8,445 bases of DNA from Candidatus Nanohalarchaeota archaeon (GTDB lineage: Archaea > Nanohalarchaeota > Nanosalinia > Nanosalinales > JAFCCC01): contig JAFCCC010000016.1 of assembly GCA_017610385.1 (NCBI GenBank), forward strand, positions 1-8,445, written 5' to 3'. Position 1 is the stretch's first letter. Each line of letters starts with the position of its first letter. Below, piece after piece: positions 2 through 8,445 of the stretch. The position numbers and the translations under genes are program-made. The notes under the pieces are model-generated. The model was not told the origin of the DNA. It did not search any database and worked only from the letters and a program-made list of their open reading frames with translations.

Positions 2-1387
2 TTACTCAAAACATTTCTCAACATGATTTTTAAATGCTGCCTCAATAACGTATTTTTTGCCGCAAGTAGGACAAATAAATTCCTTTTTCGGTTTTTTCTC
101 GTCTTTTCTCTCTTTTGTTTTTTTAGTTTCCTGTGAACTTCTTAATTTAACAACACCGTATGAAACCGGGTTTTTAATGCTTTTACACAGACTATCTGGC
201 TCACATATTAATAAATCACTATAATAACCCTCTGCAAAACAATTTGGTGGAGCAATGGATTTATTTTGCCTTTTTTGCCAACTTAACTGCGCTCTAATAT
301 ATCCATCACGCAAAGGTTGTTGATTCTTTTCATTCCATTTAATTACAATATTCTCAATTTCCGCAAAAGAATAATTCGCGCTCCTTAAAAAATTAAGCAA
401 AATAAATAAACCTCTCTTTCGACCATCTTCTAAACCATTCTTTAACAAATTTTTAATACAAGGAGGGAAAAACACTTCTGGAATTTTTCCTTTCAGTACT
501 TCATAAGCTTTTCTTTCACCAGTTTCTTCTATTTCAAGTTTTTTATTAGTTTTAGCATGCCAATCCAACGCCTGAACAACCAAACCTAGAGCTTCCCCTT
601 TTTCATAAGTTTCCAAAAAACCAGTTTCAAAAGTAACATTTTCTGGCTTTGCCATTTCCATTGTGAACTTTTTCAATTGCTCTATTGTTAAAGGAATAGA
701 AACTAACCAAGTTTTTTCGTTTAGTGAATACGGCATTCTAAATAAGTGACGAGAACTCCAATTGTTTTCTGGGTTTGTCACCTTAAACGGAAGCTGCTTG
801 TGACCTTTTTTCCAATCCATTTCAAAGAATTTTTCAGCTTTTTCAGGATCGATGTCATAAAACTTGTCATAAAGACCGTTCTTTTCAATATAATCTCGTA
901 AGTAAGAAACAATTATTCTATGAAGTTGTGGATACCATCGTTCGATTCCCTTTCCATGAATGGTCTCAGGCAATGCATTTCTATGAACAGCTACATGAAA
1001 GCCTCGGCTTCCTGAAAACTTAATTGAAATATTTTTAATTCCATGATCTTGCAAAGCTTTCACAAATAATTCTGCGGTAACTTTACCATACTCAATGCCA
1101 ATATCTGAATCAATATCAATAACCAAATCCCACCCAAGTCTCAAGGAAGATTTGTCTTTCACATTATCAATTAACAAAGGATTCCTCCAAACTTCAACAG
1201 AACCATGAAATGATGTTGCTCCATTATTCACCCACAATAAAAAATCCCCTGGAAAATTAACTATACTAGGCCGCTTACCAAAGCCTTCGCCATAACGAGG
1301 AACAACTTCACGATGTTTAGAAAGCTCTAAAATCTTTTCAACTAATTTTTCCTGAGAATAAAACTTTTTGATTTCAAAGCGATCCAT
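2..1387 (-). CDS. priS: Single-chain DNA primase: PriS catalytic domain + PriL-type Fe-S domain + C-terminal zinc finger
   Basis: Synthesises RNA/DNA primers for replication. The 461-aa chain has three parts. Residues 1-240 are the archaeo-eukaryotic primase catalytic fold: metal-binding DID at 91-93, SGSRGFH at 125-131, and RMPYSL at 217-222, matching the family's RLPGSLH segment. Residues 303-412 resemble the PriL C-terminal 4Fe-4S domain: PPC at 308-310, then C383, C395 and C401, with helical GLFILLNFL between. Residues 437-460 form a C2HC zinc finger (C439, C442, H455, C459) after a Lys/Glu-rich tether (about 418-436). The first cysteine is C310, so the zinc knuckle of ordinary PriS is missing. 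A PriS-PriL single chain is known from Nanoarchaeum equitans; the PriL N-terminal domain is not recognisable here. The third catalytic Asp is not at its expected place. The gene is last in the minus-strand replication operon and also has its own TATA-like box about 25 nt upstream. Complete gene; stop at 2-4. Confidence 0.93.
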   Translation of the reverse strand: MDRFEIKKFYSQEKLVEKILELSKHREVVPRYGEGFGKRPSIVNFPGDFLLWVNNGATSFHGSVEVWRNPLLIDNVKDKSSLRLGWDLVIDIDSDIGIEYGKVTAELFVKALQDHGIKNISIKFSGSRGFHVAVHRNALPETIHGKGIERWYPQLHRIIVSYLRDYIEKNGLYDKFYDIDPEKAEKFFEMDWKKGHKQLPFKVTNPENNWSSRHLFRMPYSLNEKTWLVSIPLTIEQLKKFTMEMAKPENVTFETGFLETYEKGEALGLVVQALDWHAKTNKKLEIEETGERKAYEVLKGKIPEVFFPPCIKNLLKNGLEDGRKRGLFILLNFLRSANYSFAEIENIVIKWNEKNQQPLRDGYIRAQLSWQKRQNKSIAPPNCFAEGYYSDLLICEPDSLCKSIKNPVSYGVVKLRSSQETKKTKERKDEKKPKKEFICPTCGKKYVIEAAFKNHVEKCFE

Positions 1388-1430: not shown

Positions 1431-1676
1431 TTATAGAAAGCCATCAATAACACATATTCCACCCAAAGCAACTGCAACGTATTTTGATAAATCTAATATA
1501 GCTCCTCCTGCAGTCACACCTGTTTGAGCAAGAAGAGACCAACCAACTTCGCGAGATAAATCTTCAAAAAGATTAGAAAAACCATAAGGAGAAACTAAAA
1601 CACGGGCGACTCCTTTAATTGCCTCTAAACTAGGATCATAGTTTGATTTTCTTGAATCATATGGTTCCCAGTTCAT
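1431..1676 (-). CDS. Small hypothetical protein with C-terminal hydrophobic segment
   Basis: I do not recognise this 81-aa protein. It has a polar, aromatic N-terminus (MNWEPYDSRKSNYDP), an amphipathic middle (about 16-45) and a mostly non-polar Gly/Ala/Val-rich C-terminus (about 47-80). That last part includes VAVALGGICVIDGFL and could be a weak membrane helix, broken by charged residues in LDLSKY. The start is set by GGAGAG (minus strand, in 1682-1687) about 5 nt before the ATG, lying inside the last codons of the PCNA gene. Only 2 nt separate the two genes, so they are very probably translated from one message. The place between clamp and primase suggests a link to replication or a replication-membrane contact, but nothing in the sequence proves it. 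That it is a true gene rests on the Shine-Dalgarno site and tight packing. Confidence 0.65.
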   Translation of the reverse strand: MNWEPYDSRKSNYDPSLEAIKGVARVLVSPYGFSNLFEDLSREVGWSLLAQTGVTAGGAILDLSKYVAVALGGICVIDGFL

Positions 1677-1678
1677 TT

Positions 1679-2425
1679 TTACTCTCCTTCGATTCTTGGA
1701 GCCAAAATAAAGCTTAATTGCAATTTGTCAGGAACTTTGAACTCTAATCTTAATGGAAAATTATTTCCCAAATTTAATCTTACAGTATCACTTAATTTCT
1801 CTGCTTTAATCATTTTGTTTAAATAATCTAAAGAAAACATGGATTTGGATGCTTCTCCTTGGATATCAAGAATTTCGTCAGTTCCTTTTTGTAAAATAAA
1901 CTTGGTTTTTGAAGAATCACCTTCTGCTTCTAATGTAATTTTTTCAGAATCTGCACTGAGAGATAATGCATCACCAACAATAGACGCATCTCCAATACCC
2001 CTACTTAAAGATTTTGTCTTGATATCTGCGTAAATCTTAAAAGTTAACTGATCTGTTGCAGGAACATCTTCTTGATCAATTTTTAATAAAGGCAAAGAAA
2101 ATGTTCTAATTGCTGATCCTTTAAGAGTTATTGTAAACGAATTTTCCTCTAAGCTTAAAAAAACTTGGTCTTGAACACTAGCTCGCCTCAAAATAGAATT
2201 TAATCGCTCAATACTTAGTCCAATTTGCTCCTCTTTTTCAAATTCAAAAGATTTAAAGGCCTTTTTAGATAATTTAAAATCAACTAGTGCTACCATTGCA
2301 GGATCTGCAGCAATTAGCTCTAATCCACTTTCTTTAACATTAAATAAGCCTTCACTTATTAAATTGGATATTGCTTGGATTGAATCCTTAAGAACAGATA
2401 TATCTTCTAATTCAGCTTTAAACAT
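1679..2425 (-). CDS. pcn: PCNA, DNA polymerase sliding clamp
   Basis: Ring-forming processivity clamp that tethers DNA polymerase, Fen1, ligase and RFC to DNA. At 248 aa it has the usual archaeal PCNA length. Diagnostic segments are LELIAADPAMVALVDFKL (about 35-52; family form LDPxxVAMVxLxL), the interdomain connector around LPLLKIDQEDVP (about 112-123) and the C-terminal LSFILAPRIE (family LxFxLAPRIE), which carries the docking surface for PIP-box partners. The start has a GGTGA Shine-Dalgarno site (minus strand, 2432-2436) overlapping the stop codon of the upstream OB-fold gene, 10 nt from it, indicating translational coupling. It is the only clamp gene in the window, so a homotrimer is the simple expectation. 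Nothing looks truncated or altered. Confidence 0.97.
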   Translation of the reverse strand: MFKAELEDISVLKDSIQAISNLISEGLFNVKESGLELIAADPAMVALVDFKLSKKAFKSFEFEKEEQIGLSIERLNSILRRASVQDQVFLSLEENSFTITLKGSAIRTFSLPLLKIDQEDVPATDQLTFKIYADIKTKSLSRGIGDASIVGDALSLSADSEKITLEAEGDSSKTKFILQKGTDEILDIQGEASKSMFSLDYLNKMIKAEKLSDTVRLNLGNNFPLRLEFKVPDKLQLSFILAPRIEGE

Positions 2426-2905: not shown

Positions 2906-3862
2906 ATGGGGGAAAAAGATTCACGTAAAGTGCCGTTTAATGTTCTTACTTTTGAAGAACTCAGAACCGTTCAAAAACGGGGCCGAAATAATGATTCATT
3001 GCAAGAGTTGGGGCCAGAGTTCCTTGATCGTATTGCCAGGTATTTAAAATTAAAAAGATCTTTGGGGGATCGGTTAAGCAGTAAAGAATATGAAAACGCA
3101 GTAAGAGTAATCTCAGACATTTTAGAATTAAGAGAACGTAAGTTAATTAGACTAGCCGCGCTCGCAGCAAAAACAAAAATACCAATAAAAAATGTTTCAG
3201 ATAGTGAAAAAGAATTTTTAAAAAGCTTAAAGATGATTTTTGAAAAACACCATAAATTTGTAGACACGAAAATCGGAATTATTCGTGGTGCAGCCAACGA
3301 GCAAGAATTAAAAGAGCTTCAAGAAGAGAAACAACAATCTATTGAACAAAAAACTGAAGTTGAAAAAGATGCTATAAAAAAAGAGAATACGAATGAAACC
3401 GCGTCAGAGCTCATTGAAAATCAAATTAAAGAAAATACTGCTATTGAACCTATGAAAATAGAACCACTTTCAAATATACTAATAGAAAACACAGAAGAAG
3501 TACGACCTGAAAAAGAAATATTAAAAATCAAAACTACGCCGGTCTTACTAGAAAATAAAGAATCAGAAGAGCTTAATGAGATTCTATCTACAGAACAAAA
3601 TAAAAAAGAAATAGAAAATAAACAAATTCAACAGACAAAAGAAATTAAAAGTATAGAACAATCAACTTCAAAGGAAATATTAGAAAGTCAAATGCATAAA
3701 ATAAGAATAAAAAGTGCGGTTCCAAAGTTTTTGGGGGTTAATTTAGAAGTTTATGGTCCATTTAATAGCGGAGATGAAATAAATCTGCCTTTAAAAAATG
3801 CTGAAGTTCTGATTAATCAAGGAATTGCTGAGGTTATAAAAAGTCCAGTTTCCAGTGCATAA
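2906..3862 (+). CDS. gins51: GINS complex subunit, Gins51-like (A domain - long linker - B domain)
   Basis: Subunit of GINS, the complex that with Cdc45/GAN-type proteins and MCM forms the replicative helicase. Residues about 10-130 are the helical A domain: VPFNVLTFEELRTVQKR, then EYENAVRVISDILELRERKL and IRLAALAA, the family's E-x-n...R-x-x-K pattern. Residues about 266-312 are the small beta B domain: KFLGVNLEVYGPFNSGDEI, then LPLKNAEVLINQGIAEVI. The A-then-B order is that of Gins51 (Sld5/Psf1-like) proteins. Unusually, about 134 residues (131-264) of Glu/Lys/Asn/Ile-rich, low-complexity sequence separate the domains; archaeal Gins51 proteins are usually near 190 aa in total, so this 318-aa chain is much enlarged. 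The linker is probably disordered or coiled. No Gins23 gene is in the window, so a homotetramer is possible but unproven. The gene runs divergently from the PCNA/primase operon. Confidence 0.88.
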   Translation: MGEKDSRKVPFNVLTFEELRTVQKRGRNNDSLQELGPEFLDRIARYLKLKRSLGDRLSSKEYENAVRVISDILELRERKLIRLAALAAKTKIPIKNVSDSEKEFLKSLKMIFEKHHKFVDTKIGIIRGAANEQELKELQEEKQQSIEQKTEVEKDAIKKENTNETASELIENQIKENTAIEPMKIEPLSNILIENTEEVRPEKEILKIKTTPVLLENKESEELNEILSTEQNKKEIENKQIQQTKEIKSIEQSTSKEILESQMHKIRIKSAVPKFLGVNLEVYGPFNSGDEINLPLKNAEVLINQGIAEVIKSPVSSA

Positions 3863-3908: not shown

Positions 3909-4208
3909 ATGGTAAAATTAGCAAAAGAACAAAATAGATATTGCCCATACTGTAAAAAACACACATTACAGGTATTAAAAGAAGACAGCAAAGGCAAATC
4001 AAATGTATTAAACAAACGATTCAGGCATAGACAAGCGAATATTGAAAAAGGATACGGTTCGTTTCCATACGAAGACCCCTCTCATAGATCTAGAGGTAGA
4101 AAGAGTCCAACGTCAAAGAAAAGGAATTTTCACTATACTTGTAAAGAATGTGGTAAATCAAATAAACCCAGAGAAGCTATGCGGGCAGGTAAGCTCGAAA
4201 TTGCGTGA
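3909..4208 (+). CDS. rpl44e: 50S ribosomal protein eL44 (L44e)
   Basis: Zinc-binding large-subunit protein shared by archaea and eukaryotes, located near the tRNA exit site. At 99 aa it is a little longer than the usual 92-95. Two zinc knuckles are visible: CPYC (12-15) and CKEC (78-81). Between them is the very basic family core, with RFRHRQANIEKGYGSFPYE (about 38-56) and the GRKSPTSKK run (63-71). The C-terminus KPREAMRAGKLEIA also fits the family. It opens the plus-strand translation operon. The following eS27 gene begins 4 nt after its stop, and its GTGA-type Shine-Dalgarno site overlaps this stop, so the two are translationally coupled. Confidence 0.96.
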   Translation: MVKLAKEQNRYCPYCKKHTLQVLKEDSKGKSNVLNKRFRHRQANIEKGYGSFPYEDPSHRSRGRKSPTSKKRNFHYTCKECGKSNKPREAMRAGKLEIA

Positions 4209-4212
4209 TTTT

Positions 4213-4368
4213 ATGAGTAAATTTATTAGAGTTAAATGTAATAAATGCAATAACGAACAAATTTTGTTTGAAAAACTCTCAACAAACGTTGATTGTTTAG
4301 TTTGTAATGAAAAACTTGCACAAAGTACTGGTGGTAAAGCCAAAATTTTAGGGACGATTTTAAAATAA
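4213..4368 (+). CDS. rps27e: 30S ribosomal protein eS27 (S27e)
   Basis: Small zinc-finger protein of the 30S subunit, 51 aa here, near the short end of the archaeal range. The zinc ribbon is made by C9-x2-C12 (VKCNKC) and C28-x2-C31 (CLVC). The tail AQSTGGKAKI is the characteristic family ending. The frame stays open upstream to an ATG at 4042, but that longer reading would lie inside eL44 in another frame. The correct start is ATG 4213, because the family begins with this short basic segment (MSKFIRVKCN) and because GTGAT (4205-4209) lies just before it, over the eL44 stop. eL44 and eS27 are adjacent in very many archaea. Confidence 0.95.
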   Translation: MSKFIRVKCNKCNNEQILFEKLSTNVDCLVCNEKLAQSTGGKAKILGTILK

Positions 4369-4392
4369 TTTCTTTGCATTCCAGAGGATTAA

Positions 4393-5139
4393 ATGAAAAA
4401 ATATAGAGTATATCCAGAAAGAGGGGATTTGGTCGTTGTTAAAATTACAGAGGTTAATCCGCATAGTGTTTTTGTGAAATTAATTGAATATGAACAAGAT
4501 GGTTTAATCCATATTTCGGAAGTTTCTAGGAGATGGGTTCGTAATATCAGGAAACAGGTCCGAGTTGGAGAAGTTAAAGTAGCTTATGTATTAGGAGTTG
4601 ATGGACGATCTGTAAATCTTTCATTAAAAAGAGTAAATGAGGGACAAAAAAAATTAACACTAGAAGAATGGAATAAAGAAAAGAAGGCAGAAAAATTCTT
4701 AGAAAAACTTTCGAAAGAGATGCAAATTCCAATGGATGAATTATATGAAAATGTGGCATTCCCTTTCCAAAAAGAATTTGGAACTACATTTGATGGTTTT
4801 GAAACCGCATTAAAAGAACCAGAAAAGATTAATTCATTACTTGATAAAAAATATTCTCAAAAAGTAATAAACATAGCCAATCAACTTATTACCCTAAAAG
4901 AAGTTAAATTAGAATCTAAGGCAATTATTAGAATTCCAACACCCGCCGGAATTACTAAACTCAAAGAAATTTTGACAAGCGAAGAAAAAGTAAAAATTAG
5001 TTATATTTCTGCTCCAAGATATAAAATAGAGGTTTTTGCACCAGAGTATAAATCTGGAAAAGAAATAATGAAAACTAAAATAAACGAACTAAAGGAGAAA
5101 ATTGAAGCAGTTGGCGGATCTTTTTCAATAGAGGAATAA
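4393..5139 (+). CDS. eif2a: Translation initiation factor 2 subunit alpha (aIF2-alpha)
   Basis: Subunit of heterotrimeric aIF2, which brings initiator Met-tRNA to the small ribosomal subunit. Residues 8-80 are an S1-type OB domain: PERGDLVVVKITEVN, then GLIHISEVSRRWVRNI and VLGVDGRSVNLSLKRV. S45 in EVSRRW sits where eukaryotic eIF2-alpha has the regulatory phosphoserine 51. Residues about 90-165 are the helical domain, and about 170-248 the C-terminal alpha/beta domain that contacts the gamma subunit (IIRIPTPAGITKLKEIL; YKIEVFAPEYKSGKEIM). At 248 aa it is slightly shorter than the usual 260-275. The start is set by AGAGG (4383-4387) 5 nt before the ATG. It sits in the standard archaeal order eL44-eS27-aIF2a-Nop10. 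Confidence 0.96.
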   Translation: MKKYRVYPERGDLVVVKITEVNPHSVFVKLIEYEQDGLIHISEVSRRWVRNIRKQVRVGEVKVAYVLGVDGRSVNLSLKRVNEGQKKLTLEEWNKEKKAEKFLEKLSKEMQIPMDELYENVAFPFQKEFGTTFDGFETALKEPEKINSLLDKKYSQKVINIANQLITLKEVKLESKAIIRIPTPAGITKLKEILTSEEKVKISYISAPRYKIEVFAPEYKSGKEIMKTKINELKEKIEAVGGSFSIEE

Positions 5140-5140
5140 A

Positions 5141-5305
5141 ATGGGAAAGATTAAAAAGTGTGTTAAGTGTAATTTATATACTCTAAAAACAAAATGTGAT
5201 TTGTGTGGAATCGAGACTCAAAATGTTGTTCCCCCAAAATTTTCTCCAGAAGATAAATATGGAATCTATCGGAGAAAAATGAAAAAGAGGTTAGAATATG
5301 TCTGA
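5141..5305 (+). CDS. nop10: H/ACA RNP protein Nop10
   Basis: Small protein of H/ACA guide ribonucleoprotein; it bridges Cbf5 and L7Ae for RNA-guided pseudouridylation of rRNA. The 54-aa product (MGKIKKCVKC...KKRLEYV) has the archaeal zinc ribbon C7-x2-C10 and C19-x2-C22 with the family's YTLK between them. After it come VPPKFSPEDKYGIYRRKMKK (30-49), nearly the exact Nop10 signature that wraps Cbf5. A GAGG site 6 nt before the ATG lies inside the end of the aIF2-alpha gene, whose stop is 1 nt upstream. The last 8 nt overlap the next gene. Its short length makes it easy to miss in automated calling. Confidence 0.96.
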   Translation: MGKIKKCVKCNLYTLKTKCDLCGIETQNVVPPKFSPEDKYGIYRRKMKKRLEYV

Positions 5306-7039: not shown

Positions 7040-7537
7040 ATGTGGCATTTAAAAAAAATAGTATTTTGTATTGGATTTATTTTTCTATTTATTAGTTCTA
7101 TTTACGCCACAGATTATATCACTTTAAAGGTTGGCGAAACCCAGAATAGAAAATTGTATATATATAATCCCTCCACTGCAATGACCGACTTATTAGACTT
7201 AACATTAAGTTCAACGGGCTCTGTAAACGCATGGATAACTACTACTCAAGGAAATAGAATGAATGTACAGGTTCTTCCGAAAGAAAACAAGAGTATTCCA
7301 ATTACAATTATCGCAACAGGATGCACACAGAATCCATGTGAAGGAACAGTAGATTTCTTTGCTAATTCATCAATAACTGGAAACTCTGTTTCAAAACAAA
7401 TAACAGTTTCGATACAATCAAAACAAGCTAGAGGGTTCTTAGGAACTGCTCCAGATCTGAACTGGAGTTATTTAGTACTAATTGCATTAGTTGGTGCAAT
7501 AATTTCAATTAGTATTCATAAAATATGGAAAAAATAA
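7040..7537 (+). CDS. Secreted Ig-like domain protein with C-terminal membrane anchor
   Basis: A 165-aa protein of no family I can name, but with clear cell-surface architecture. A signal peptide covers residues 1-23 (KK, then IVFCIGFIFLFISS, with probable cleavage after YA). Residues about 25-126 look like a beta-sandwich/Ig-like domain: alternating strands such as YITLKVGETQNRKLYIYNP, SIPITIIATGC and KQITVSIQS. C95 and C100 (GCTQNPC) could form a disulfide bond outside the cell. A hydrophobic helix (143-160) followed by HKIWKK would anchor the C-terminus, leaving the domain outside. N-glycosylation sequons are NKS (83), NSS (109) and NWS (141, next to the membrane). It is the first of three exported proteins in a row, which suggests a surface-protein locus. 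Strong own promoter. Confidence 0.82.
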   Translation: MWHLKKIVFCIGFIFLFISSIYATDYITLKVGETQNRKLYIYNPSTAMTDLLDLTLSSTGSVNAWITTTQGNRMNVQVLPKENKSIPITIIATGCTQNPCEGTVDFFANSSITGNSVSKQITVSIQSKQARGFLGTAPDLNWSYLVLIALVGAIISISIHKIWKK

Positions 7538-7559
7538 TTTTGTATGACGTTCGTAAAGC

Positions 7560-7567
7560 TTTTTATG
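7560..7567 (+). promoter_or_regulatory. TATA-like box for the 7598 gene
   Basis: TTTTATGT preceded by GTAAAGC, a possible BRE-like element. Its centre is about 34 nt before the ATG at 7598, predicting a leader of about 8 nt. GTGAT (7590-7594) could act as a Shine-Dalgarno site. AAAGCTTT followed by TTATGTAAA is shared with the uS2 upstream region. Confidence 0.4.
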
Positions 7568-7597
7568 TAAATTAAACAAATTTTATACAGTGATTAT

Positions 7598-8023
7598 ATG
7601 CCTAAAAGATTAATTTTCTGGTCCATTGTATGTATCTTGCTTTTAACTATTATTTTGATATTTGTAGCTCCAAGAATTGGAAGAAATAAAGGAGGAATAC
7701 GCATAGATACAAGTAAATGGGACGAGAATTTTGATACTAAACCAATTCCAGAAGATCAGATTCCCATAATAGAAATTGTAAATCAATCCTTTTTAAAAAC
7801 AGAGTTACAATTAGAAAAAGGTAAGAGAATTAAATTTATTAATAAAGATTCTGAGAATTATACTCTAATGATTCCTTTAATTGGAATAGAAGAACCATTA
7901 GATCCTGATTCTGTTTTTGAGCCAACATTTTACAAAGAAGGCGAAATTGAATTCTGGTTAAAAGAACTTGGAGAGAATAAAACGAAGGGGATTGTAAATG
8001 TTACGGTTTCAGAAACATCTTAA
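7598..8023 (+). CDS. Signal-anchored cupredoxin-like protein lacking copper ligands
   Basis: A 141-aa protein not assigned to a named family. Residues 6-24 are a strong membrane helix (IFWSIVCILLLTIILIF) after MPKR, which would leave the rest outside. Then comes a polar tether (25-55). Residues 56-138 have the strand order of a plastocyanin/cupredoxin-type domain: IIEIVNQSFLKTELQLEKGKR, IKFINKDSENYTLMI, LDPDSVFEPTFYKEGEIEFW, GIVNVTV. In copper proteins this frame carries His, Cys, His and Met ligands; here there is no histidine at all, the only Cys (C12) is in the membrane helix, and NKDSENYT replaces the usual N-x-D-x-x-x-H. Copper binding is therefore not expected. Four N-glycosylation sequons (N62, N87, N127, N134) fit an outside location. 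The next exported gene starts 14 nt after its stop. Confidence 0.75.
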   Translation: MPKRLIFWSIVCILLLTIILIFVAPRIGRNKGGIRIDTSKWDENFDTKPIPEDQIPIIEIVNQSFLKTELQLEKGKRIKFINKDSENYTLMIPLIGIEEPLDPDSVFEPTFYKEGEIEFWLKELGENKTKGIVNVTVSETS

Positions 8024-8037
8024 TCCCGTAGGAAAAA

Positions 8038-8445
8038 ATGGTAAAGATAATTTGGAATAGAAAGTCGTATTCTAAGTACTTATTTTTTATAATTTCTGGA
8101 TTATTCTTTACTTCAGTATTTATCTCGGTGAGTGCGGCAGATTTAACAGTAACAGGAACCACAACCTTAAATGCTGGTTCTTATACGTATGGCACAGTTC
8201 ATGTTACAAACACAGGAACTTTAATTCTAAAAGGAAATCCATCACGCACGGGCTTTAAAGGTGTTGAAATAACTGCGACCACATTCACAATTGATTCAGG
8301 CGGCAAAGTCTCTGCTGATGGAGAAGGTTATGTTGGTGGTGCGAGTTCTACAGACAGTTACTATGGAAAGCCGGGAAGTGGGACTGGAAAAGCTACTGGA
8401 TATTACTACAGGTATGCCGATTCTGGTGGTGGTGGAGGGTATGGC
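8038..8445 (+). CDS. Large glycine-rich secreted protein, 3'-truncated by window end
   Basis: The reading frame is open from ATG 8038 to the last base: 136 codons with no stop, so only the N-terminus is visible. Residues 1-34 form a signal peptide: basic start with KRSYSK-like charges, hydrophobic YLFFIISGLFFTSVFI, and likely cleavage after SAA. The mature part begins DLTVTGTTTLNAGSYTYGTV and HVTNTGTLILKGNP, short beta repeats with Thr/Asn/Gly turns like those of right-handed beta-helix surface proteins. From about residue 88 it becomes rich in Gly, Ser and Tyr (GEGYVGGASS, DSGGGGGYG at the edge). AGGA (8030-8033) lies before the ATG and only 14 nt separate it from the upstream gene, so they are probably co-transcribed. 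A surface adhesin or cell-contact protein is plausible; no enzyme motif is visible. Confidence 0.78.
   Translation, partial: MVKIIWNRKSYSKYLFFIISGLFFTSVFISVSAADLTVTGTTTLNAGSYTYGTVHVTNTGTLILKGNPSRTGFKGVEITATTFTIDSGGKVSADGEGYVGGASSTDSYYGKPGSGTGKATGYYYRYADSGGGGGYG

Follow-up and report, generated by a model that had tools for sequence, protein, structure and literature searches.

In the present study, we analyzed an 8,445-nucleotide stretch of nanohaloarchaeal DNA, hereafter the window, which carries the gene of a single-chain DNA primase. It was observed that the minus strand encoded, in order, the primase, an 81-aa ORF, PCNA and an OB-fold protein, and that the divergent plus-strand genes encoded a GINS subunit, L44E, S27E, aIF2-alpha, a probable Nop10 (5141-5305, named from its position and size), a PAC2-family protein, Rpb6 and S2. 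A supercluster combining PCNA, PriS and Gins15 with L44E-S27E-aIF2alpha-Nop10 has been described (PMC2643942), and the primase locus of the window is this conserved supercluster. The features are listed in Table 1. The 81-aa ORF between the primase and PCNA (1431-1676, minus strand) had no Pfam or NCBIfam match. At 7040-8445 of the plus strand, three secretory or membrane-type ORFs were found; one of them had a cupredoxin match below threshold, and another, open-ended, had a haemagglutinin-repeat match that likewise stayed below threshold.

Table 1. Features of the primase locus (positions are those of the window).
Feature	Position	Strand	Basis or remark
Fused PriS-PriL(CTD) DNA primase	2..1387	-	461 aa, complete ORF, ATG to stop included
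PriS-type AEP catalytic core, residues 1-265	593..1387	-	PF01896, VIA-align
Motif I D91-I-D93, metal ligands by homology	1109..1117	-	invariant in alignment A2
Motif II S125-G-S-R-G-F-H131	995..1015	-	H131
Linker helix, residues 267-289, between PriS and PriL-CTD parts	521..589	-	model secondary structure
PriL-CTD-like domain, residues 300-415	143..490	-	phmmer to P. abyssi PriL; NCBIfam PriL models
C310, Fe-S ligand 1 by homology	458..460	-	aligned with P. abyssi PriL FPPC
D321-G-R-K-R325, putative initiating-NTP site	413..427	-	D-x-R-K-R spacing as in S. solfataricus PriX
C383, Fe-S ligand 2 by homology	239..241	-	directly after invariant N382; Y/F/W in all ligand-less relatives
C395, Fe-S ligand 3 by homology	203..205	-	alignment to P. 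abyssi PriL
C401, Fe-S ligand 4 by homology	185..187	-	alignment to P. abyssi PriL
C2HC zinc-finger-like motif C439, C442, H455, C459, at chain end	11..73	-	positions; marginal Pfam zinc-finger match below cut-off
PCNA, upstream of primase	1679..2425	-	PF00705, PF02747
GINS subunit (Gins51/15), divergent	2906..3862	+	PF22090, PF05916
L44E, S27E, aIF2-alpha, probable Nop10 = LSIN translation cluster	3909..5305	+	

In the Pfam search, the N-terminal part of the protein scored 35.4 bits with PF01896 (DNA_primase_S), above the cut-off of 26.8. The AlphaFold2 model of the primase had a mean pLDDT of 88.8, and its comparison by VIA-align with archaeal PriS (9f26_A, 1g71_A and 1v33) gave Z scores of 17.1-17.5; the best AEP fold score was Z 20.6, obtained with Prim-PolC over model residues 1-291. 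A LigD-type Prim-Pol identity was rejected, since PF21686 reached 19.4 bits, below its cut-off of 27.4. Motif I was present in every alignment row covering the site, and H131 of motif II was found without exception in the 126 fused primases that have four or no ligand cysteines. In the model, the catalytic core and the C-terminal domain were bridged by a single helix, with no space for the N-terminal domain of PriL, in agreement with the first-pass annotation, which had found that domain unrecognisable.

The C-terminal part matched two NCBIfam PriL models (E 6.7e-7 and 1.6e-5), neither match reaching the equivalog cut-off of its model. It also matched Pyrococcus abyssi PriL (9f26_B) with E values of 1.5e-4 to 2.4e-4, the latter from phmmer. 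The primase has cysteines at 310, 383, 395, 401, 439, 442 and 459, and the first four were all in register with cysteines of P. abyssi PriL. These results upheld the first-pass annotation both in its residue numbers for the four cysteines and in its proposal that one protein joins a PriS core to an Fe-S-type domain of PriL. By homology, the four cysteines would share one site. The pattern, judged on the alignment, is far beyond chance, as all four cysteines occurred in 82 of 127 fused primases. Because single-sequence matches were weak and the Foldseek and VIA-align lists, made up of PriS-type chains, scarcely covered residues 266-461, the assignment of this domain rests on sequence profiles and the cysteine pattern. 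Within it lies a motif resembling the site of S. solfataricus PriX, which binds the initiating nucleotide via D70 and 72-RKR-74 and has equivalents in eukaryotic PriL (PMC5700102). G322 and R325 of the motif were invariant in all 126 rows with four or no cysteines, and D321 was found in 125 of them.

The chain ends in a C2HC motif, a putative zinc finger. The same motif was present in 22 examined fused primases from Nanohaloarchaeota, Aenigmatarchaeota and two further archaea grouping with Aenigmatarchaeota. It had earlier been taken to set this enzyme apart; within its group that view was not borne out, the finger being common to other Nanohaloarchaeota and some Aenigmatarchaeota. In Nanosalina sp. 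J07AB43 (G020:C7:633709-635035), the fused primase was divided between two ORFs separated by about 10 bases, of which one was PriS-like and the other carried the CTD and the finger; this could reflect a sequencing frameshift or a true re-split.

The assembly comprises 788 kb in 18 contigs, is 93.5% complete and has a GC content of 31.6%; the host is a low-GC, deep-branching nanohaloarchaeote. In this assembly, the window primase was the single PriS locus found. PF04104 gave zero matches in this genome, missing even the PriL-CTD of the window primase, and was thus too insensitive alone for the priL question in these genomes, so the PriL equivalog model was added. This model matched the window primase only, and no separate priL was found in the 93.5% complete assembly, as the first-pass annotation would lead one to expect. 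Across 54 related genomes, PriL outside primase genes was limited to one weak match (G114, E 1e-3). A separate subunit could sit in the unassembled part of the genome.

The first-pass annotation had regarded the fusion as a rarity comparable only to Nanoarchaeum. The Nanoarchaeum equitans primase NEQ395 was reportedly characterised by Schneider in 2023 (NAR gkad261) and, by the title of that study, is monomeric with features of heterodimeric enzymes. Its likeness to the window primase, a single chain, is taken from that title. Moreover, the fused PriS-PriL primase has been published as a synapomorphy of Undinarchaeota and DPANN cluster 2 (Dombrowski 2020, PMC7414124, citing Raymann 2014). The window gene therefore belongs to a known class, and the claim of rarity was not upheld. 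It shares with the primases of this class the joining of PriS and PriL-CTD in one gene, the lack of a separate priL and the chromosomal replicative context, and no class-level difference was found. Relatives were recovered by an alignment-based scan of genome contigs, as an over-specific single-protein scan recovered none, and they showed the same fused architecture. In a tree of 79 fused primases, the window primase fell within the nanohaloarchaeal clade of fused DPANN primases (support 99/92), with Nanohaloarchaea as its nearest named kin.

The unexpected part, which is invisible from the window sequence alone, was found in these relatives. In an alignment with 15 phylum-mates (40-48% identical), only the window protein had the four Fe-S cysteines. 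In the tree, the ligands were absent in 19 of 19 sampled nanohaloarchaeal sisters (L034-L050, L058, L059 and L065, minus L049) and were retained by the window primase and the next lineage out, L049. Among 127 distinct fused primases, 82 had four ligands, 44 had none and one had three, this last sequence being cut off by a contig end. Ligand-less enzymes were also found in one Pacearchaeota family (L107-L109, L113 and part of L120-L170), from which 56 genomes were drawn evenly. When the trait columns were masked, parsimony gave nine ligand changes in this family, of which well-supported branches made six unavoidable, and the hypothesis of one origin for the loss was rejected (p-AU 3e-6). In Nanohaloarchaeota, a quick tree with the trait columns masked placed the ligand-less L050 just outside the window primase (support 51), which leaves room for either one loss or two. 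The loss or losses would lie near the divergence of the window's lineage, and the window enzyme would serve as a closely related comparator that retains the ligands.

The losses themselves are plain at the sequence level, and the domain itself was kept. The position after the invariant N382 was Cys in all retainers and aromatic in all losers, with Tyr in 31, Phe in 12 and Trp in one. G322, R325, N352, N382, N406 and P407 were invariant in both groups, and the initiation-site motif D-G-[RK]-K-R was kept in ligand-less primases. The model of the ligand-less SG9 enzyme had a mean pLDDT of 90.0 and showed the same series of CTD helices as the window model. In the ligand-less genomes, no separate PriL was found outside the primase gene, apart from the weak G114 match mentioned above. 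We consider it likely that complete loss of the [4Fe-4S] ligands has occurred repeatedly among the single-chain primases of DPANN, with one or two events in Nanohaloarchaeota and about six or more in one Pacearchaeota family, and that every event removed all four ligands, put an aromatic residue after N382 and left D-G-[RK]-K-R in place. If true, the [4Fe-4S] cluster is a structural part that a cellular replicative primase can dispense with. In the open-access literature searched, no earlier report of such losses was found; their absence from the wider literature and the continued function of the ligand-less enzymes without a substitute are both uncertain.

Taken together, we hold with high confidence that the window gene is the sole replicative primase found in the assembly, a single-chain PriS plus PriL-CTD enzyme that lacks the PriL N-terminal scaffold and in which the cluster would act as a structural staple. 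By homology, the metal ions needed for phosphodiester formation would be held by D91 and D93 together with another acidic residue, probably E207. The 5' initiating nucleotide would be bound by the C-terminal domain via D321-G-R-K-R and handed over to the catalytic site in the PriS part, so that one chain would carry out both halves of the priming reaction. C310, C383, C395 and C401 would bind a [4Fe-4S] cluster that staples the CTD. A structural role, not that of an obligatory redox switch, is suggested because sister lineages replaced the four ligands and kept the domain with its D-G-[RK]-K-R motif.

Three other readings were weighed. The four-cysteine site might hold zinc or nothing in this organism, since the sequence does not reveal metal content and no SUFBD-core gene was found in the genome; we judge this distinctly unlikely, as the four ligands match those of archaeal PriL, a [4Fe-4S] family (PMC5700102), and as the genome encodes an IscU-type scaffold (151.6 bits) and three radical-SAM genes, with which the organism very probably makes Fe-S clusters. 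It is very unlikely, too, that the single chain is an incomplete enzyme requiring an unrecognised large subunit or a PriX-like partner. Such a requirement has a precedent in S. solfataricus, which needs PriX besides PriS and PriL (PMC5700102), and the assembly is incomplete; against it, the genome has no second PriL-like locus, the 54 related genomes gave the one weak match, and the window chain has its own D-x-R-K-R motif. The title of the 2023 Nanoarchaeum study also speaks of a monomeric primase. Entry of a mobile-element PriS and PriL-like fusion of the PolpTN2 kind is scarcely credible: PolpTN2 of the Thermococcus plasmid pTN2 does join PriS-like and PriL-like parts and four cysteines in one chain (PMC3973330, PMC5862659), but it is plasmid-borne, about 920 aa long and equipped with extra PriCT-1 and winged-helix parts, with Gln in motif II where the window primase has H131, whereas the window gene lies in a chromosomal PCNA/GINS/L44E (LSIN) cluster, is the only PriS found in the assembly and groups in the tree with the organism's own lineage.

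The Fe-S supply was also compared between ligand-retaining and ligand-less genomes. Most retaining genomes near the window's had an IscU-type scaffold, mostly at about 130-163 bits, and no SUFBD; many ligand-less genomes combined SUF genes with a NifU_N gene of lower score, and these often shared a contig. The idea that ligand loss tracks the loss of Fe-S assembly genes was rejected, as the nanohaloarchaeal families f4 and f5, whose primases are ligand-less, carry SUFBD genes and the window's genome has none. In G140 and several f3 genomes, a ligand-less primase occurred together with an IscU-type scaffold but no SUF genes. In the Pacearchaeota family, SUF accompanied lost ligands in 11 genomes and kept ligands in none; genomes without SUF numbered 14 with lost and 31 with kept ligands. 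This association was non-significant on independent pairs (p 0.125), and SUF occurred in 28 of 49 ligand-retaining genomes elsewhere in DPANN, so it was set aside. The pairing of SUF with ligand-less enzymes and of the IscU-type scaffold with retainers was seen in two DPANN groups (genomes G000-G037 and G087-G140) and not elsewhere.

The role of the primase [4Fe-4S] cluster is disputed between a redox switch and fold support (PMC5700102, against the electrochemical reports discussed there and in PMC6298731). The sister clades described here are natural experiments, as they offer single-chain homologues of about 420-540 aa with four ligands or none and the same nucleotide-site motif. Because the window enzyme keeps the ligands and has close kin without them, the disputed role becomes testable, and the comparison of the window enzyme with a nanohaloarchaeal relative would probe it without engineered mutants. 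The retention of the motif in relatives lacking every ligand argues against an obligatory redox role. In S. solfataricus, the Fe-S domain can be removed without abolishing priming, provided that PriX is there (PMC5700102). Sulfolobus PriSLX resembles the fused primases in its D-x-R-K-R nucleotide site and shows that an Fe-S cluster is not essential for priming, but it consists of three subunits with the initiating site on PriX, whereas in the DPANN fused primases the ligands were lost from the very domain that keeps the motif. In addition, the monomeric architecture sidesteps the subunit-assembly problem of heterodimeric primases.

Several further features were observed among the fused primases. 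In L143 (G119) and L146 (G094), the chain was interrupted just ahead of the SG(G/S)KG(M/W)H motif II by intein-like insertions several hundred residues long. L145, L149 and other Pacearchaeota primases of 500-540 aa (among L151-L170) contained, between PriS motif II and the RHLFR motif, a zinc-ribbon-like insert about 100 residues long with many CxxC pairs. One fused archaeal primase (L057) was located on a contig filed as Candidatus Omnitrophica bacterium CG1_02_40_15, possibly owing to a binning error.
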